Source: Arthrobacter sp. MYb229 (lineage in GTDB: Bacteria > Actinomycetota > Actinomycetes > Actinomycetales > Micrococcaceae). From it: a DNA stretch of 64,000 nt. The translations under genes and the position numbers were made by a program. Below are positions 22,006-30,779 of the stretch, piece after piece. The DNA lies in assembly GCF_002975405.1 (NCBI RefSeq), contig NZ_PCPS01000008.1:1-64000 (forward strand), written 5' to 3'. The notes under the pieces are model-generated. The model worked only from the letters and a program-made list of their open reading frames with translations. It had not been told where the DNA came from and made no database searches. The first letter of the stretch is position 1; every line of letters begins with the position of its first letter.

Positions 22006-23061
22006 GTGTTCATAAGGCCCTCAAATGTGACGAAATACGGATCGCAGCCCACGAGGCCAATAAGCGAATCCATAGCTGAAGCTGTTGCTCTGGTCGTTGC
22101 CAGCTCAGTTGTTATTTTCGGGCTGATAAGTATAAATCTGGAAGGCGGCGAAATTGACCAAACTGTGCCAGTCGCGCGCGAATTCGGTGCCGCTATCCTC
22201 GATGAGATCGGATGGATCTGTGGTTTCTATCTAACTATCCTCATCGGCTTCTATGTGGTCACGATAAGTGGCCAGATCCGAGGTATCTCGGAGCGAGCGA
22301 CAAGGACAAGCCGGACGCTTGGGCTATACGCCACATTTATCGTAGGGGCGATCGTACCGGCATTGGTGCTTTGCGTAATGGCCGCTATTGGCGACCCTGA
22401 AAAATTGGGAAAACTCGTGGTCGCGGTCCCTGCGCTAGTTGTGTTGATAGTAATGTCCCTGACGCTGAGCGGTTTTGCAGTGAACGACAAGAAAGTGCAA
22501 CTGAAAATTGCCGAGATTAGGCTGAAGAAATCAATCGAAGACGGGATCGAATATAGAGAACGGTCCAAGATCAAAACATGGAAAGTTCTCGTTTTTGAAC
22601 CTTTGGTTTTGAGTTTTATTTTATGGATTTGCTGCTTGATTTTTTACCGTCCCGAATTTTCGATCGGGGTGGTGGTCCTGTTCGTATTGCTCCTCGTGCT
22701 ATCGGGAGGTTATATGCTGTTGTGCTTCGGCCTCTTAACATCTTTTTCTCCACGCAATGGCAAAATTGACAAGTATGCAACAGTCGCCATCGCACTGCTA
22801 TCGGCGCTGTTTTCTATACTGTTGATATCTATTTTCGTGGAGGCGGCTGGCATTTTTCCAGCGATCATAGTTCTTTTTACTTTCATCGTTCCCCTGGCCA
22901 TGCTGATATGGCCGAGAGCGATACCTGGCGGATTTCTATACGATTGGAGCCTCCGCGCGGTAGCTTCTCGATATCTGGCCAAGAAAGCCGCACTGAATAG
23001 GGCTAGTGCGCGGTTGCAAATTAGGAGCATCATTTCGGAATCGAACTCATCCGCAGGCTGA
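22006..23061 (+). CDS. Uncharacterised multispan membrane protein (low GC)
   Basis: A 351-residue protein I do not recognise. About eight hydrophobic spans are visible: ~27-47, ~65-88, ~107-128, ~135-155, ~205-222, ~228-250, ~262-282 and ~285-305, separated by a charged stretch at ~160-200 (KKVQLKIAEIRLKKSIEDG) likely to be cytoplasmic. GTG at 22006 has AAGGAGAG upstream. Codon use is clearly more AT-rich than the surrounding catabolic genes, which suggests transfer. It stands alone, downstream of an orphan operator and upstream of ilvD on the other strand. Confidence 0.7.
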   Translation: MFIRPSNVTKYGSQPTRPISESIAEAVALVVASSVVIFGLISINLEGGEIDQTVPVAREFGAAILDEIGWICGFYLTILIGFYVVTISGQIRGISERATRTSRTLGLYATFIVGAIVPALVLCVMAAIGDPEKLGKLVVAVPALVVLIVMSLTLSGFAVNDKKVQLKIAEIRLKKSIEDGIEYRERSKIKTWKVLVFEPLVLSFILWICCLIFYRPEFSIGVVVLFVLLLVLSGGYMLLCFGLLTSFSPRNGKIDKYATVAIALLSALFSILLISIFVEAAGIFPAIIVLFTFIVPLAMLIWPRAIPGGFLYDWSLRAVASRYLAKKAALNRASARLQIRSIISESNSSAG

Positions 23062-25144: not shown

Positions 25145-25193
25145 TCTAAAATCCCATCATAGATTTGTTCCCTGACCCAGACGGCGTTGATAC

Positions 25194-25207
25194 TAGTAGT
25201 ACTACTA
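25194..25207. promoter_or_regulatory. Palindrome between ilvD and the MmyB-type regulator
   Basis: Perfect 14-bp palindrome TAGTAGTACTACTA in the 83-bp divergent region, a fitting operator for the helix-turn-helix protein starting at 25228 and perhaps for ilvD. Confidence 0.65.
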
Positions 25208-25227
25208 CCATGATAAAAGGACCAATA

Positions 25228-26013
25228 ATGGACGCTGGTCAGCGGCGCAGGGAAGAACTTGCAGCCTTCCTCAAAGACCGCCGAGCCCGGGCGGAGCGTG
25301 CCTCGCATGGACTGCCCGAGGTGGGGAGAAGCCGAGTGCGCGGGCTGCGACGCGAGGAGGTCGCCACCCTGGCCGGAGTTTCGGTGACCTGGTACACCTG
25401 GCTGGAGCAATCAAGGGATATCAATCCCTCACGTCAGGTACTGGACTCGCTGGCTCGGCTCTTTCGGCTGACTCCGGTGGAGAGTACTTACCTCTTGTCG
25501 TTGGGTGGTCACGGCGAAAGCGTTTCGGACGTGACTAGTGAGGTGACCCCCGCCCTGCAGCGATTGCTCGATGCCTTGGACTTCCCTGCATTCCTGATTG
25601 CCGCGGACTGGACGATTATCGGTTGGAACGCGGCCTACGCAATGCTCTACCCGCGGATTGCATCTCTTGAAGAGACTGACCGGAATCTTCTCTGGTTGGT
25701 GTTCACTGATGATCAATTACGCGAAATGCTCCCAGACTGGGAAGCGCAGAGTCGAAGCTTCGTGGGCAGCTTCCGTGCCGAAACCCGGGGCTGGCTCAGC
25801 CCTTCGGGGGATAGCGGCATCGTGGCACGCGTATCGGAAGCTTCACCGGAGTTCGCTGCAATCTGGAAGGAGCGTGATGTAGCCGGATTTCGCACAGGGG
25901 AGAGGTTGTTTAGGCATCCTTGCAAGGGGATGACAAGTTATGAACAGCACAATTTCATACCCGTTGAAGCATCGGATTTAACACTTATCTTCTACGCACC
26001 AGCTCAGTGCTAA
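25228..26013 (+). CDS. XRE-type regulator with MmyB-like ligand domain
   Basis: A 261-residue regulator. The N-terminal helix-turn-helix reads REELAAFLKDRRARA, then RGLRREEVATLAGVSVTWYTWLEQ and ILDSLARLFRLTPVE-type residues; the C-terminal half (residues ~110-261; ALDFPAFLIAADWTIIGWN, NLLWLVFTDDQLREMLPDWE, FRTGERLFRHPCKGMTSYEQ) is the MmyB-like PAS-fold that binds fatty acids or hydrophobic ligands. ATG at 25228 has AAAAGGA upstream; in-frame starts at 25210 and 25165 are possible but the latter would run through the palindrome. Divergent from ilvD. Confidence 0.87.
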   Translation: MDAGQRRREELAAFLKDRRARAERASHGLPEVGRSRVRGLRREEVATLAGVSVTWYTWLEQSRDINPSRQVLDSLARLFRLTPVESTYLLSLGGHGESVSDVTSEVTPALQRLLDALDFPAFLIAADWTIIGWNAAYAMLYPRIASLEETDRNLLWLVFTDDQLREMLPDWEAQSRSFVGSFRAETRGWLSPSGDSGIVARVSEASPEFAAIWKERDVAGFRTGERLFRHPCKGMTSYEQHNFIPVEASDLTLIFYAPAQC

Positions 26014-26162
26014 ATACGATTTGTAGGTACCTCTTGATCTGGCTGCTCACGTGTAATCTCCTCAATTCGTGGGCACTGAGATCAAAACTTCGTTGACAAT
26101 CGATCTCCATACTTTGTGTATCCTCAGAACAGAGGTACTGACTGAGGCTTTTCAGCACAATG

Positions 26163-29100
26163 TTAGTCTCGTTTGAACAATGTGCGACTAATAATTAAAT
26201 CCGATTCGTCGAGATTGGATAAAATGTCAATTATTCGATTTTGTGCGATTGGCTTTCCGAAATCAGACTTAAATAATAGGTATAGTTCTTCGACAGCAGG
26301 CAGTAAGGGATCGCGGACTTCATTGCTATCTTTGAATGACAGTCTAACGGCCTTTAGAATATGCGGGATTAGATCAATTCGTAACCGAAGATTAACCAAA
26401 AGAAATTTCAACAATAGTTGAAGATTACTCGATTGTGACTCAGGTGAGTCGCCTGCAAATTCTAAAACCCCTTTTGCGGCATAGAAAGCAACGATTTCTA
26501 AGTCCTCTTCTCCGTTTTCAGCGTTATTTTTGATGAACTCTTGAATGAAGGCATAAGCCTTCATCGGATTATTCCATACAGCCGCAAAACTCAAGTATGA
26601 AGCTGCTCCTGCAGCTTTCCAAGAATCTATCCTCGCCGCTTCAATCCACGTAGAAATGTCAGGGTTCATGTCAACGTGAAAATTTGCGACCAAGGTTGCC
26701 TCTGCCGCATCAAGATCTGCCTCATCAATCTCGCCTATTTTCGACAAATAGCGAAGTAGCGCAACGGTGCCAAATGTTGGAACACCTAAAAGTGTCGCGA
26801 GAGATCGAAGCGATGAATCGTCACACCAAAATGCAGTCCGATTGACTAGTGCTAAGTCAAGTGCGCTGAGCCATGCGGAACGAGGAAGGTCGTTATCCAC
26901 GAATGAAATCTGTGGCCATGACTTTCTGTGAGCTCTTTCCAGAATGGAGACCGTCGCCTCAATATGACTGTAACGCTTCTCGGCTTCGTCATCAGATATC
27001 GAGTGAAAATTTAGTTTTTGCGCTTCTTTGTTCCAGCCGACTGTCATGGTTGAGCGTCGCTGAAGGCTTAACCTTGCCTCGAGAGCATCTTTATAAATTG
27101 GTGTCGTAGTTTTTAGTACAGAAAACTTACCTATAAGGGTATCTTGTATTTTATCGTCCAATAAAGCAAGGGTTGATGCAGCTGTTGTGTCTAATGAAAC
27201 ATGCTTATTTAATGCTTCTGAAATGTTCGTTTCTGATACAATTTGCTGCTCATTGTCTGAACTAAATATTCGTCCAGCGGCACGTAGAATACAAGCTTCG
27301 GCTAAAGTCTTATCATATAGTAATGTCACCATTCCTAAGGGAAGCTTTCCTTCGCAGATCTGTCTTTCGTACTCCACAAGATCCTGATCTTCTTGTTGGT
27401 TTACAAAATGATTCTTCATGACGTCAAGTAGATCTTCGATGGACTCTGACTTGAAAGAACGCAGGGTGCTGCTTTCCGGATTTTCTGAGACGTAAGAACT
27501 GAGTTTTTCTTGTAGCTCCTCTAGATCTTTTTTGGGTGCTTTATCGGCCGATACTAATGTATTAGCCAGTAAAATCCCGACCAGTTCTGTATCTTCCTTA
27601 CGTTCTTCAATTAGCCTTAACGCACTGCGAACGAACGAGGGTCTATCGTCGAATTGTGATGAAAGGAAGATCCATAGTCGGGCATCGTGATGGTTGCGAG
27701 GGTCAAGTGCTGTACCGAAGTGATTTAGGGTATTCCAGGCAGGGGAATAATTTCCATCCCGGGCCAATGCATGTATGAGAACCCAGCGGGAATTCTGATC
27801 TTTAGGATTAGCGGAGACCATCTGGCGAGCCACACTAAGAGATTCCTCGTGCATGCCTAATTTTTCTAAAGACTCAAAGCGAACACGCAGGGCCCGTTCG
27901 TGTCCAGACGATCCGCGCATGCACATACTGACAGCTTCATGAGCAGTCTTCTCGGCCAACACGTAGTTTTCGGATCTAAAATAGGCTTCGGCTGCCATGA
28001 TCATAAGTTGAGCAGAATCCCACCGCAAGGAGGCCGCCTTTAGTAATTCAGCTGACTCGTGATGCATTCCTGATGTTGCTAGGTGTTCTGCCAGTAAAGA
28101 ATCCAGTAATTCTGATTTGCCGGCTCTCGCGCGCAGCAATATGATTTTATTGTCCGGATCAGACATAATTTCATGTATTTCTCGTATTTGGCTGATCGCT
28201 TCAGGATATTTGGCAGCTAACTTCTCTATATCCGGTAAGCCCATCCCTAGTGGGCTAAGCGCATTGGCGGCCCGGATAAGGTCGAAATCGTTCGTTGCTA
28301 ATTCGAAAGACTTGAACCAGTAGTCGACAGCTTCGTCGAGCCTTTTTGAATTGAATGAAGCCCAACCGTCAATGTAAGAAGTCGCGAAAGGATTATCTAG
28401 TTGGGAGACAATATTCTTCGCGAGTTTGAAGTTATTTTTACTAGCTGACACGAAAGCGGCTTCCAGCAAAATTCTAGAATCCTTGGCTTCAAGGTAGGTG
28501 GCCTCGCCAATGGGAGGAGCCTGGGTGATCTTCCAAGCCCTGTCACTATCGTTGCAAAGCATATATGCGTGTATTGCCACAAGAGCAGGTTCTGAGCTGT
28601 CCCCTGACCATAGTCGCCGCTGATTCCTTGCTAATAACGCAAGCTCACCTGCTTGTATGAGATCTCCAGAACTATTTTCACTGTTCCCGTGCAAGCTGCG
28701 CCATATTAGGTTGCTTGCGGCCGTAATCGCTAGCACATCTGAATTGTTGTCTTGATCGATCGATTCAACAAGGAGCGCTATCGATGAATTTATGTCGCCC
28801 TCTTCGGCAAGGCATACTGAGATGATTTTGGACTTGAGCATCCGATCATTCATCTCACTTGCATCCCATGCATCCAAGAATTGTCTAGCCTTCTGAAAAT
28901 TTCTTTGGGCTAATTGGCAGCAGGCGTTAGCCAACGAATGATCGAAGTGGAAGTTTCCCATCTCGTTTTTTAGGTTATTAATTGCTTCAGTATTCATGGG
29001 GTGCAATAGTAAGGCGGCTCGCGCAAACCAATAATCCGGCCTGGTAACACCTTTGGAAACGGCTACCTTAATAAATTCAACTGCAGCGCTATGATTCCCA

Positions 29101-29816
29101 TAGTCTTCAGCTAGAGTACCAAGCCATGCCCAAACAGAGGCCGGTGCATCTTCTAATTTGCTCGGTGGAATTCGGCTCCAGTTCGATAGAACTTTGGCTC
29201 GTTCTTTGTCATCGACTAAGGATACGACTAATTCTGTTAGATCTGGCCAAAGTTTCTGTAATTTGGTACCTTCGTTAACGCGCCAGGGATGCAGTTTCGA
29301 TAAGGAAAGTTTGAATAGATCATTAGAATCAATCTTATCAATTATTAATCCCGTGGAATGCGTGACTATTTCTCTGGTGGTCTCACTCTCATTGCCGAGA
29401 TGGTTTAGCATCATGTTGGTTCCCATGACCATTGCATCATTTATGGGTAACTCACGCTGATATTCTTGGTAAGTCAAGAATAGCACTTGCCTTGCGCGTG
29501 TCTTTCGATTTTCCGGGGATTCACTTTCAATGATGAAAGCCAAGCTGTTCAACGCCGAATCGATCTGGCTGGTGCTTCCCTCTGCAATTTGTTGTTTCAC
29601 GTCTTCTCGCTGAAGCCATTTTTTCAGGGCCTTACGGGAAACTGTGATTTCCTGTTGGGAACTCAACTTTGAAACAGCTTTTGCTACACGTGCAGATAGT
29701 CTTTTCTTCTTGAGTGTTTTCTTAGCTGCGTCGGATAAAGATCCGAAAACTGTCTTTGCTAGAGAAGACAAAATCGCACTACTGATTGGTTCCAAAGTGC
29801 TAGTCGAACCTTCCAT
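26163..29816 (-). CDS. Giant TPR-like protein with PIN-like nuclease region (low GC, possible defence protein)
   Basis: A 1217-residue protein, unlike its neighbours in base and codon use (markedly AT-rich). Residues ~1-160 are helical with a basic patch (KKTLKKKRLSARVAKAVSKL). Residues ~220-800 are a long alpha-solenoid of degenerate tetratricopeptide-like helical pairs (YGNHSAAVEFIKVAVSKG, NFQKARQFLDAWDASEM, HESAELLKAASLRWDSAQL). Around 870-1020 a PIN-domain pattern appears: SLDTTAASTLALLDDKI near 873, acidic residues in IYKDALEARL, then FWCDDSSLRSLATLLGVPTFGT near 997. The last ~200 residues are helical. No P-loop is present. Start by overlap with a short upstream frame. Function unknown; nuclease activity is inferred. 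Confidence 0.75.
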   Translation of the reverse strand: MEGSTSTLEPISSAILSSLAKTVFGSLSDAAKKTLKKKRLSARVAKAVSKLSSQQEITVSRKALKKWLQREDVKQQIAEGSTSQIDSALNSLAFIIESESPENRKTRARQVLFLTYQEYQRELPINDAMVMGTNMMLNHLGNESETTREIVTHSTGLIIDKIDSNDLFKLSLSKLHPWRVNEGTKLQKLWPDLTELVVSLVDDKERAKVLSNWSRIPPSKLEDAPASVWAWLGTLAEDYGNHSAAVEFIKVAVSKGVTRPDYWFARAALLLHPMNTEAINNLKNEMGNFHFDHSLANACCQLAQRNFQKARQFLDAWDASEMNDRMLKSKIISVCLAEEGDINSSIALLVESIDQDNNSDVLAITAASNLIWRSLHGNSENSSGDLIQAGELALLARNQRRLWSGDSSEPALVAIHAYMLCNDSDRAWKITQAPPIGEATYLEAKDSRILLEAAFVSASKNNFKLAKNIVSQLDNPFATSYIDGWASFNSKRLDEAVDYWFKSFELATNDFDLIRAANALSPLGMGLPDIEKLAAKYPEAISQIREIHEIMSDPDNKIILLRARAGKSELLDSLLAEHLATSGMHHESAELLKAASLRWDSAQLMIMAAEAYFRSENYVLAEKTAHEAVSMCMRGSSGHERALRVRFESLEKLGMHEESLSVARQMVSANPKDQNSRWVLIHALARDGNYSPAWNTLNHFGTALDPRNHHDARLWIFLSSQFDDRPSFVRSALRLIEERKEDTELVGILLANTLVSADKAPKKDLEELQEKLSSYVSENPESSTLRSFKSESIEDLLDVMKNHFVNQQEDQDLVEYERQICEGKLPLGMVTLLYDKTLAEACILRAAGRIFSSDNEQQIVSETNISEALNKHVSLDTTAASTLALLDDKIQDTLIGKFSVLKTTTPIYKDALEARLSLQRRSTMTVGWNKEAQKLNFHSISDDEAEKRYSHIEATVSILERAHRKSWPQISFVDNDLPRSAWLSALDLALVNRTAFWCDDSSLRSLATLLGVPTFGTVALLRYLSKIGEIDEADLDAAEATLVANFHVDMNPDISTWIEAARIDSWKAAGAASYLSFAAVWNNPMKAYAFIQEFIKNNAENGEEDLEIVAFYAAKGVLEFAGDSPESQSSNLQLLLKFLLVNLRLRIDLIPHILKAVRLSFKDSNEVRDPLLPAVEELYLLFKSDFGKPIAQNRIIDILSNLDESDLIISRTLFKRD

Positions 29817-29848
29817 TAATATACGACTGACGCTTTGTTTGGTTGCAT
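29816..29848 (-). other. Short upstream frame overlapping the TPR-PIN start (TAATG)
   Basis: A 10-codon frame (MQPNKASVVY) whose TAA stop shares its A with the ATG of the 1217-residue gene. The large gene has no Shine-Dalgarno sequence of its own, so its start may depend on translation of this frame. It has no clear ribosome site either, so this is tentative. Confidence 0.3.
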
Positions 29849-30020
29849 AAATTTCAGTCGAATAGTTGTTCTGTGGCGATACTTAGTCGTTTGGGCTCAG
29901 TTTATCGACGATTGACCGGAAATAAAAGATGGGGGCGTCACCCGTGCGGGAAAAGAGTTGACTCATGCTGGATCAGTTTATGCAAATGGCAAACTTTATC
30001 CGAGGAATTCAGTGATATTT

Positions 30021-30779
30021 TCACTTTAAAAACTCTAGGGCCTTCTCCCGGAATTCATGGCTAGTTACCGCATTCGCATGATTGCGTCCAGCGAGCCAGA
30101 GCACCTCGTTGGCGGTACCCGCATCTTTCAGGAGTCGGCGCAGATGGGGCATGGTCGTGGCGAGCTCATCGCGATCGCCGGCGACGAGCAAAGTCGGTAT
30201 CGAAGGCACCTTGGCGGCTGGATCGTACGGCTCGGATTTGATCGCTTCGATCAGCTCGAATAACGCGGTGAGATTGTTGCTTGGTTCGGCAGCGGCAATC
30301 TTCATGATTGTGGCGGTGTAATCATCATTGATTTCTTCGCCGGTAGCCTGGTTGGCGCGTGCCTGATCCAAGGCGAAAGCGGCCAGCGGATCGCCGGCGC
30401 CGGGGCCGCCGATCACCAAATGCTCCACCAGATCCGGGTTGTAAGCGGCGAATTCCCACGCGAGGCGTGAGCCGAGAGAATAGCCGATCACGTCAACCGG
30501 ACCCTCATCGCGATCCATGACGATCGCTGCCAATGCCTGGCGAATCTGGCTCGGTGCCCAGCTGCCGCTATTGCGGCGGGGACCCTCGCCGTGGCCCGGT
30601 AGGTCAATGAGCAGTACGTTACGTCCGGCATCGGTGAAATATTTCAGCCACCGCGAACGCACCCAATTCAATTCGCCGGATGAGGCGAAACCGTGGATGA
30701 AAAGCACGGATGGGCCGTTCACCTCAGCGTTTGCGGGAATCACTCGAAGATTAAGATCCAGGGTCATGCCTTCGATCAT
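30021..30779 (-). CDS. Alpha/beta hydrolase
   Basis: A 252-residue alpha/beta-fold hydrolase. FIHGFASSGELNW forms the oxyanion region, DVIGYSLGSRLAWEFA holds the nucleophile Ser (GYSLG), VAGDRDELATTMP gives the acid and GRNHANAV the His. Substrate unknown; the short lid resembles MenH/BioH-type esterases. ATG at 30779 is taken, with MTLD at 30767 as an alternative; neither has a strong ribosome site. It is divergent from the NAD synthesis operon and its start lies within a few bases of a candidate NrtR site. Confidence 0.87.
   Translation of the reverse strand: MIEGMTLDLNLRVIPANAEVNGPSVLFIHGFASSGELNWVRSRWLKYFTDAGRNVLLIDLPGHGEGPRRNSGSWAPSQIRQALAAIVMDRDEGPVDVIGYSLGSRLAWEFAAYNPDLVEHLVIGGPGAGDPLAAFALDQARANQATGEEINDDYTATIMKIAAAEPSNNLTALFELIEAIKSEPYDPAAKVPSIPTLLVAGDRDELATTMPHLRRLLKDAGTANEVLWLAGRNHANAVTSHEFREKALEFLK

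Follow-up and report, generated by a model that had tools for sequence, protein, structure and literature searches.

The window analysed here is a 64,000-nucleotide stretch of the Arthrobacter sp. MYb229 genome (4.0 Mb, 23 contigs; contig NZ_PCPS01000008.1, positions 1 to 64,000), and the subject of this work is one large gene on its minus strand, which encodes a 1217-residue protein (P0001) built of an N-terminal module, a tetratricopeptide repeat (TPR) solenoid, a PIN domain and a C-terminal helical domain. It is a single open frame with an ATG start and no internal stop. The single 1217-residue gene that an earlier sequence-only reading of this DNA had given at 26163–29848 stood, and its end was corrected to 29816, position 29848 being out of frame and 32 bases upstream of the ATG. 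The AT-rich codon use noted in that reading was likewise recovered, with a GC content of 0.445 and a GC content at third codon positions (GC3) of 0.42 for the gene, versus 0.57–0.67 and 0.61–0.89 for five of the six nearby genes measured (the sixth, 22006–23061, had 0.49 and 0.54). The genome holds one match to PF20698, the Pfam family of the PIN domain. The gene and its parts are as follows.

26163–29816, minus strand: whole gene, P0001
29337–29816, minus strand: N-terminal helical module, residues 1–160, the exchangeable part of the family
27483–29324, minus strand: TPR solenoid, residues 165–778
26739–27218, minus strand: PIN domain, residues 867–1026
26166–26738, minus strand: C-terminal all-helical domain, residues 1027–1217

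Residues 875–1008 matched PF20698 at 49.8 bits (curated cut-off, 27.8), and the fold predicted for this part is PIN-like, with structural matches that include VapC toxins. Both results bear out the PIN-type region with acidic motifs that had been read from the letters, its three named motifs carrying D876, D910 and D999/D1000, and the structural comparison proposed as a refuting check thus returned the expected fold. Conservation of the acidic positions was evaluated in a 43-row alignment, comprising P0001 and 42 of the 53 loci collected by a degenerate DD...FGT motif pattern; the remaining 11 loci, which were fragments, duplicates or non-matches, were left out (L071, L075, L079, L080, L083, L084, L086, L095, L108, L109, L118). 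The 53 loci come from named genomes; judged by their titles, 50 belonged to Actinomycetota, two came from one unplaced bacterial metagenome-assembled genome (MAG) and one was an alphaproteobacterial non-match.

27189–27191, minus strand: codon of D876, PIN acid 1, after strand 1 (D in 43/43 aligned proteins)
27087–27089, minus strand: codon of D910, PIN acid 2 (D in 42/43, E in L113)
26856–26858, minus strand: codon of D987, candidate PIN acid 3 (D in 28/43, E in 5/43, other residues in 10/43)
26817–26822, minus strand: codons of D999 and D1000, PIN acid 4 region, WCDD (invariant in seven proteins)

D876 and D910 lay outside the search pattern that gathered the rows. Conservation of D999, D1000, R1004 and FGT in the 42 gathered rows arises because these residues were part of that pattern; D999, D1000, R1004, G1016 and T1017 were also invariant in the window protein and six homologs found without it. 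Of the acidic quartet that an active PIN ribonuclease would carry, D876, D910 and D999/D1000 are present; D987 is also present here but is acidic in only 33/43 rows.

Upstream of the PIN domain, TPR_19 (E 6.5e-8) and TPR_14 were above the Pfam cut-off, and the structure model of residues 1–800 was all-helical with a mean pLDDT of 86.2. Foldseek gave 173 chains at E ≤0.001, with matches to the TPR parts of APC/C, OGT and the SKI complex, though whole-model TM-scores were low. The TPR-like helical pairs of the sequence-only reading were retained, their length being revised from about 550 to about 610 residues. The structure alignments included 34/37 loci covering residues 790–1217 and 28/31 covering residues 1–800. 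Against PDB sequences the full-length protein matched four entries (gamma-SNAP 5.2e-4, ClpC1 0.57 and above), and NCBIfam gave no above-cut-off family in the 4 proteins searched. The C-terminal domain is helical in the model, with a pLDDT of 84–97 over most of its length; a DNA-binding assignment for it (Pfam HTH_ABP1_N) was dropped, as the match was below cut-off and occurred in one member of seven.

This architecture is not new, contrary to the 'not yet described' of the sequence-only reading: it has its own Pfam family, PF20698, and section 7 of Kaur et al. 2021 (PMC8195603) presents it as the TPR-GreA/B-C-PIN conflict system, in which EAD10 or one of 13 effectors is followed by TPR, GreA/B-C and PIN, mostly in a standalone gene. 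The N-terminal modules named in that section are EAD10, REase, HNH, PNPase, TIR, SIR2, trypsin, BTLCP and a HetE-type domain, and the action predicted there is docking on hijacked RNA polymerase and transcript cleavage by PIN, with the N-terminal effector as a back-up killer. The window protein resembles this system in its PF20698 PIN domain, the TPR repeats before it, the variable N-terminal module and the standalone gene, but differs in that GreA/B-C is absent from the protein and was detected in no other row of its branch. No PF01272 match was listed for the window protein at E up to 10, a range in which filters remove most matches above ~0.1; the model of residues 1–800 contained no strand of at least 3 residues, only single bridge residues, and residues 790–868 were helices only. 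In nine Pseudomonadota members, which have 155–232 residues after the PIN match, PF01272 was found in four, always below cut-off (20.1–26.8 bits vs 26.9). A profile of their GreA/B-C region recovered 8/9 members in leave-one-out searches (L133 was missed) and gave nothing significant in 52 rows of the window's branch (best L091, E 1.8), namely the 43 aligned rows and nine others, including P0001, three loci fetched twice (L003/L094, L005/L087, L065/L101) and four rows in which the region is partly or wholly missing (L073, L096, L119, L121). Because the published mechanism involves GreA/B-C, it does not apply unchanged here, and we class the protein as a variant, short of full membership; this comparison was made with the text of PMC8195603, and members without GreA/B-C may appear in its Figure 2K or supplements. 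In a family tree with the nine Pseudomonadota rows, even L133, marked as carrying GreA/B-C, the split followed phylum; since the tree is unrooted and has long branches (L133, L066, L137, L113, L136), it does not distinguish loss from gain. Three further Pseudomonadota genomes contain frames of 1946, 1948 and 2065 residues with weak, sub-cut-off PF20698 matches of 21–24 bits (L139, L140, L142), which are possibly a longer related family.

The N-terminus was the part of the protein that varied by exchange. In the window protein its first 120 residues are basic (20 K+R vs 12 D+E) and largely helical in the model, with low confidence for residues 1–28 and 143–159, in keeping with the basic helical N-terminus reported earlier. 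Among 31 proteins longer than 1000 residues with a complete N-terminus (the window's protein and some near-duplicates included), we found four recurring types, the homologous helical module in 14, DUF4365 in 4, transmembrane (TM)-like helices in 5 and a short glycine-rich segment in 5 (by eye), with 3 unassigned. The helical-module profile, built from ten proteins, recovered all ten in leave-one-out searches at E 4.8e-9 or better. Three of the DUF4365 proteins were assigned by domain search and the fourth by an N-terminus 98% identical to one of those; in L112, PADLOC matched DUF4365 to Argonaute-associated REase models, and the domain was also present in the homolog of genome G202. Exchange could be followed on closely related cores, in that Micromonospora and Actinoplanes-type proteins were 72–76% identical in the core and 33–38% in the N-terminus, one kind carrying the helical module and the other a pair of TM-like helices. 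Three two-TM rows scored weakly with the helical-module profile (E 0.009–0.03), probably through a shared tail, and a simple hydropathy rule also flagged a single helix in L074, of the helical type, and in L111, of the glycine-rich type. The window's own module had no Pfam match, so it is not equated with any module named in PMC8195603 section 7, Pfam coverage of EAD10 being unchecked.

Several N-termini deserve separate mention. The glycine-rich segment is seen in five Streptomyces loci (L070, L076, L105, L111, L114), where the N-terminal 77 residues contain no recognised domain; it may resemble amyloid signalling motifs. On an Acidimicrobiia TPR-PIN core, the N-terminal 228 residues of L082 look like an REase-type nuclease by eye and had no match in Pfam. 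The protein encoded by L123 (genome G804) shows, by eye, a P-loop and an NACHT-like order (Pfam NACHT E 0.073, below cut-off), and its N-terminus weakly resembles that of the window protein (E 0.0055), a single match hinting that the module may be common to STAND/NACHT-type NTPases.

Relatives were sporadic. In protein searches, 6/395 family genomes had a match, own genome included, the other full-length matches being 27–28% identical, and no TPR-PIN match was obtained in the 17 other genus genomes. PF20698 occurred in 3/396 genomes of the own phylum (own included) and, in the phylum to which an alphaproteobacterial MAG belongs, in 13/398 genomes, with 9 above cut-off. A protein 33% identical over 99% of the length is encoded on an Arthrobacter sp. 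NicSoilB8 plasmid typed as mobilizable. A single-protein scan of genome contigs gave no relative, phage records no match, and viral contigs scanned with a DUF4365-type homolog nothing. Two TPR-PIN paralogs lie on separate contigs of one MAG (L077 and L099, genome G1047).

The gene occupies a variable chromosomal spot:

26014–30020, strand not applicable: variable spot between an HTH gene (25165–26013, plus strand) and an alpha/beta-hydrolase gene (30021–30779, minus strand), convergent flanks that are paired in genus relatives

Both flanks were close together in 15/17 other genus genomes (the remaining two gave no match to the HTH gene), with 79–3157 bp between the flank match ends; the spot was empty in three genomes (79, 109 and 165 bp) and measured 908–3157 bp in twelve, none of which carried a TPR-PIN gene there. 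The cargo of the twelve, named by eye, was a lipoprotein-like plus an antiporter-like gene in 4, a lipoprotein-like gene alone in 4, small membrane-type genes in 2 and a GNAT-like gene in 1; the recurring lipoprotein-like gene may be a long-standing occupant and not cargo. The twelfth spot, of genome G075 (L053 2395–4389), held a single 665-residue AAA ATPase gene of 46% GC, with Pfam matches to AAA_15 and AAA_21, a sub-cut-off one to DUF4435 and a PADLOC match to AriAB of PARIS (127.9 bits); PARIS thus shares this niche with the window gene but not its domains. In the window, the TPR-PIN gene is the sole sizeable gene of the spot, the rest being frames of 35–73 residues that overlap it or a flank and were not searched for antitoxin homology. 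Elsewhere in the window, the gene at 22006–23061 (plus strand), GC-poor relative to its neighbours, encodes a 351-residue protein, membrane-type by eye, that gave nothing above cut-off in a Pfam scan and is possibly another recent arrival.

Around the homologs, four of six neighbourhoods contained neighbours modelled by PADLOC, a type I restriction system in genome G202, a type IV restriction enzyme in G058, and PDC-S02 genes adjoining the homologs of G361 and of the NicSoilB8 plasmid. Seven of eight scanned neighbour proteins had matches at E ≤1e-5, in one case only weak ones. Homologs that are only fixed core genes, the outcome that the sequence-only reading had named as refuting it, were not what we found; the setting is variable and defence-like.

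With its exchangeable N-terminal module, long TPR solenoid, PIN domain with conserved acids, helical C-terminal domain and sporadic distribution in variable spots, the protein is probably a self-contained conflict protein, most likely anti-phage, from the TPR/PIN family described by Kaur et al. 2021, belonging to a sub-lineage without GreA/B-C. Of the one-gene defence or stress system proposed earlier, the one-gene layout is kept, and for the stress option we found no positive evidence. The solenoid may keep the PIN RNase silent and sense or bind an infection-related partner, upon which PIN would cut RNA (transcripts, tRNA or rRNA), halting either the growth of the phage or the cell itself. 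The N-terminal helical module could be a second effector, or an adaptor joining other proteins, since relatives hold DUF4365 (with its PADLOC REase model) or membrane-type helices at the same place. A PIN effector is plausible given the DefensePredictor report (PMC13092281), in which DS-3 and DS-5, two further phage-defence systems with a PIN domain, are reported to require their catalytic residues. Several points weigh against this assignment. Auto-inhibition, trigger, substrate and outcome are all inferred for this protein, and the literature matches listed contained no experimental test of the TPR-PIN family, whether by phage challenge or by RNase assay. PADLOC had no fitting model for the protein itself (best Cas11e, E 0.0077), the Foldseek E-values of the PIN matches were weak (0.02 and above), and D987, the candidate third acid, is non-acidic in 10/43 rows. 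Regarding the neighbourhoods, the eight scanned proteins were picked by eye without a background rate, one of them (L013:12668–13840) had no match, and no defence neighbour was recognised by eye beside the G045 and G374 homologs.

Other accounts of the same data can be considered. The protein could act as Kaur et al. proposed, docking on virus-hijacked RNA polymerase so that PIN cuts the extruded transcript, with another surface replacing GreA/B-C; the PIN family and TPR core are the same as in the model of PMC8195603 section 7, but the required domain was found neither as strands nor by profile, making this unlikely. VapC toxins are among the structural matches of the PIN fold, which would suit a stress-response or toxin-antitoxin RNase of VapC type regulated in normal growth. 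This is quite improbable for a protein that is some nine times as large as a 132-residue VapC and whose PIN is joined to ~780 residues of helical scaffold and to a helical domain at the C-terminus; no antitoxin gene was recognised beside it, the only other frames being the short overlapping ones, which were not searched for antitoxin homology.

Some PIN domains are inactive, and the one here might serve as a dead binding platform with the N-terminal module as the real effector, as the varying third acid and the weight that module swapping puts on the N-terminus would allow; D876, kept as D in 43/43 rows, and D910, D or E in 43/43, render this very unlikely. The combination of helical repeats and PIN also recalls SMG6/EST1A, the eukaryotic endonuclease of nonsense-mediated decay, but a housekeeping RNA-decay factor of this kind is hardly to be expected of a gene of low GC with a variable N-terminus and a plasmid copy, sporadic in bacteria (1/18 genus and 6/395 family genomes), and none of the four PDB sequences that the full-length protein matched was SMG6.

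For the family, the conflict-protein assignment opens a broader possibility, which we put forward tentatively: a large, mainly Actinomycetota branch may work without an RNA-polymerase-docking domain, and TPR-PIN may be a general infection-sensing RNase module with interchangeable N-terminal killers, membrane-inserting ones included. The sole printed mechanism that we found for the family, in the text of PMC8195603, is a computational prediction that depends on GreA/B-C. The branch lacking it, with proteins of ~1200 residues in many Actinomycetota genera, offers a direct test of the need for RNA polymerase docking. It also supplies, in the window gene, a compact single-gene candidate that could enter defence assays, in a family where closely similar cores naturally bear different modules. 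If the branch does work without docking, the core mechanism of the family would be something other than transcript cleavage at RNA polymerase.
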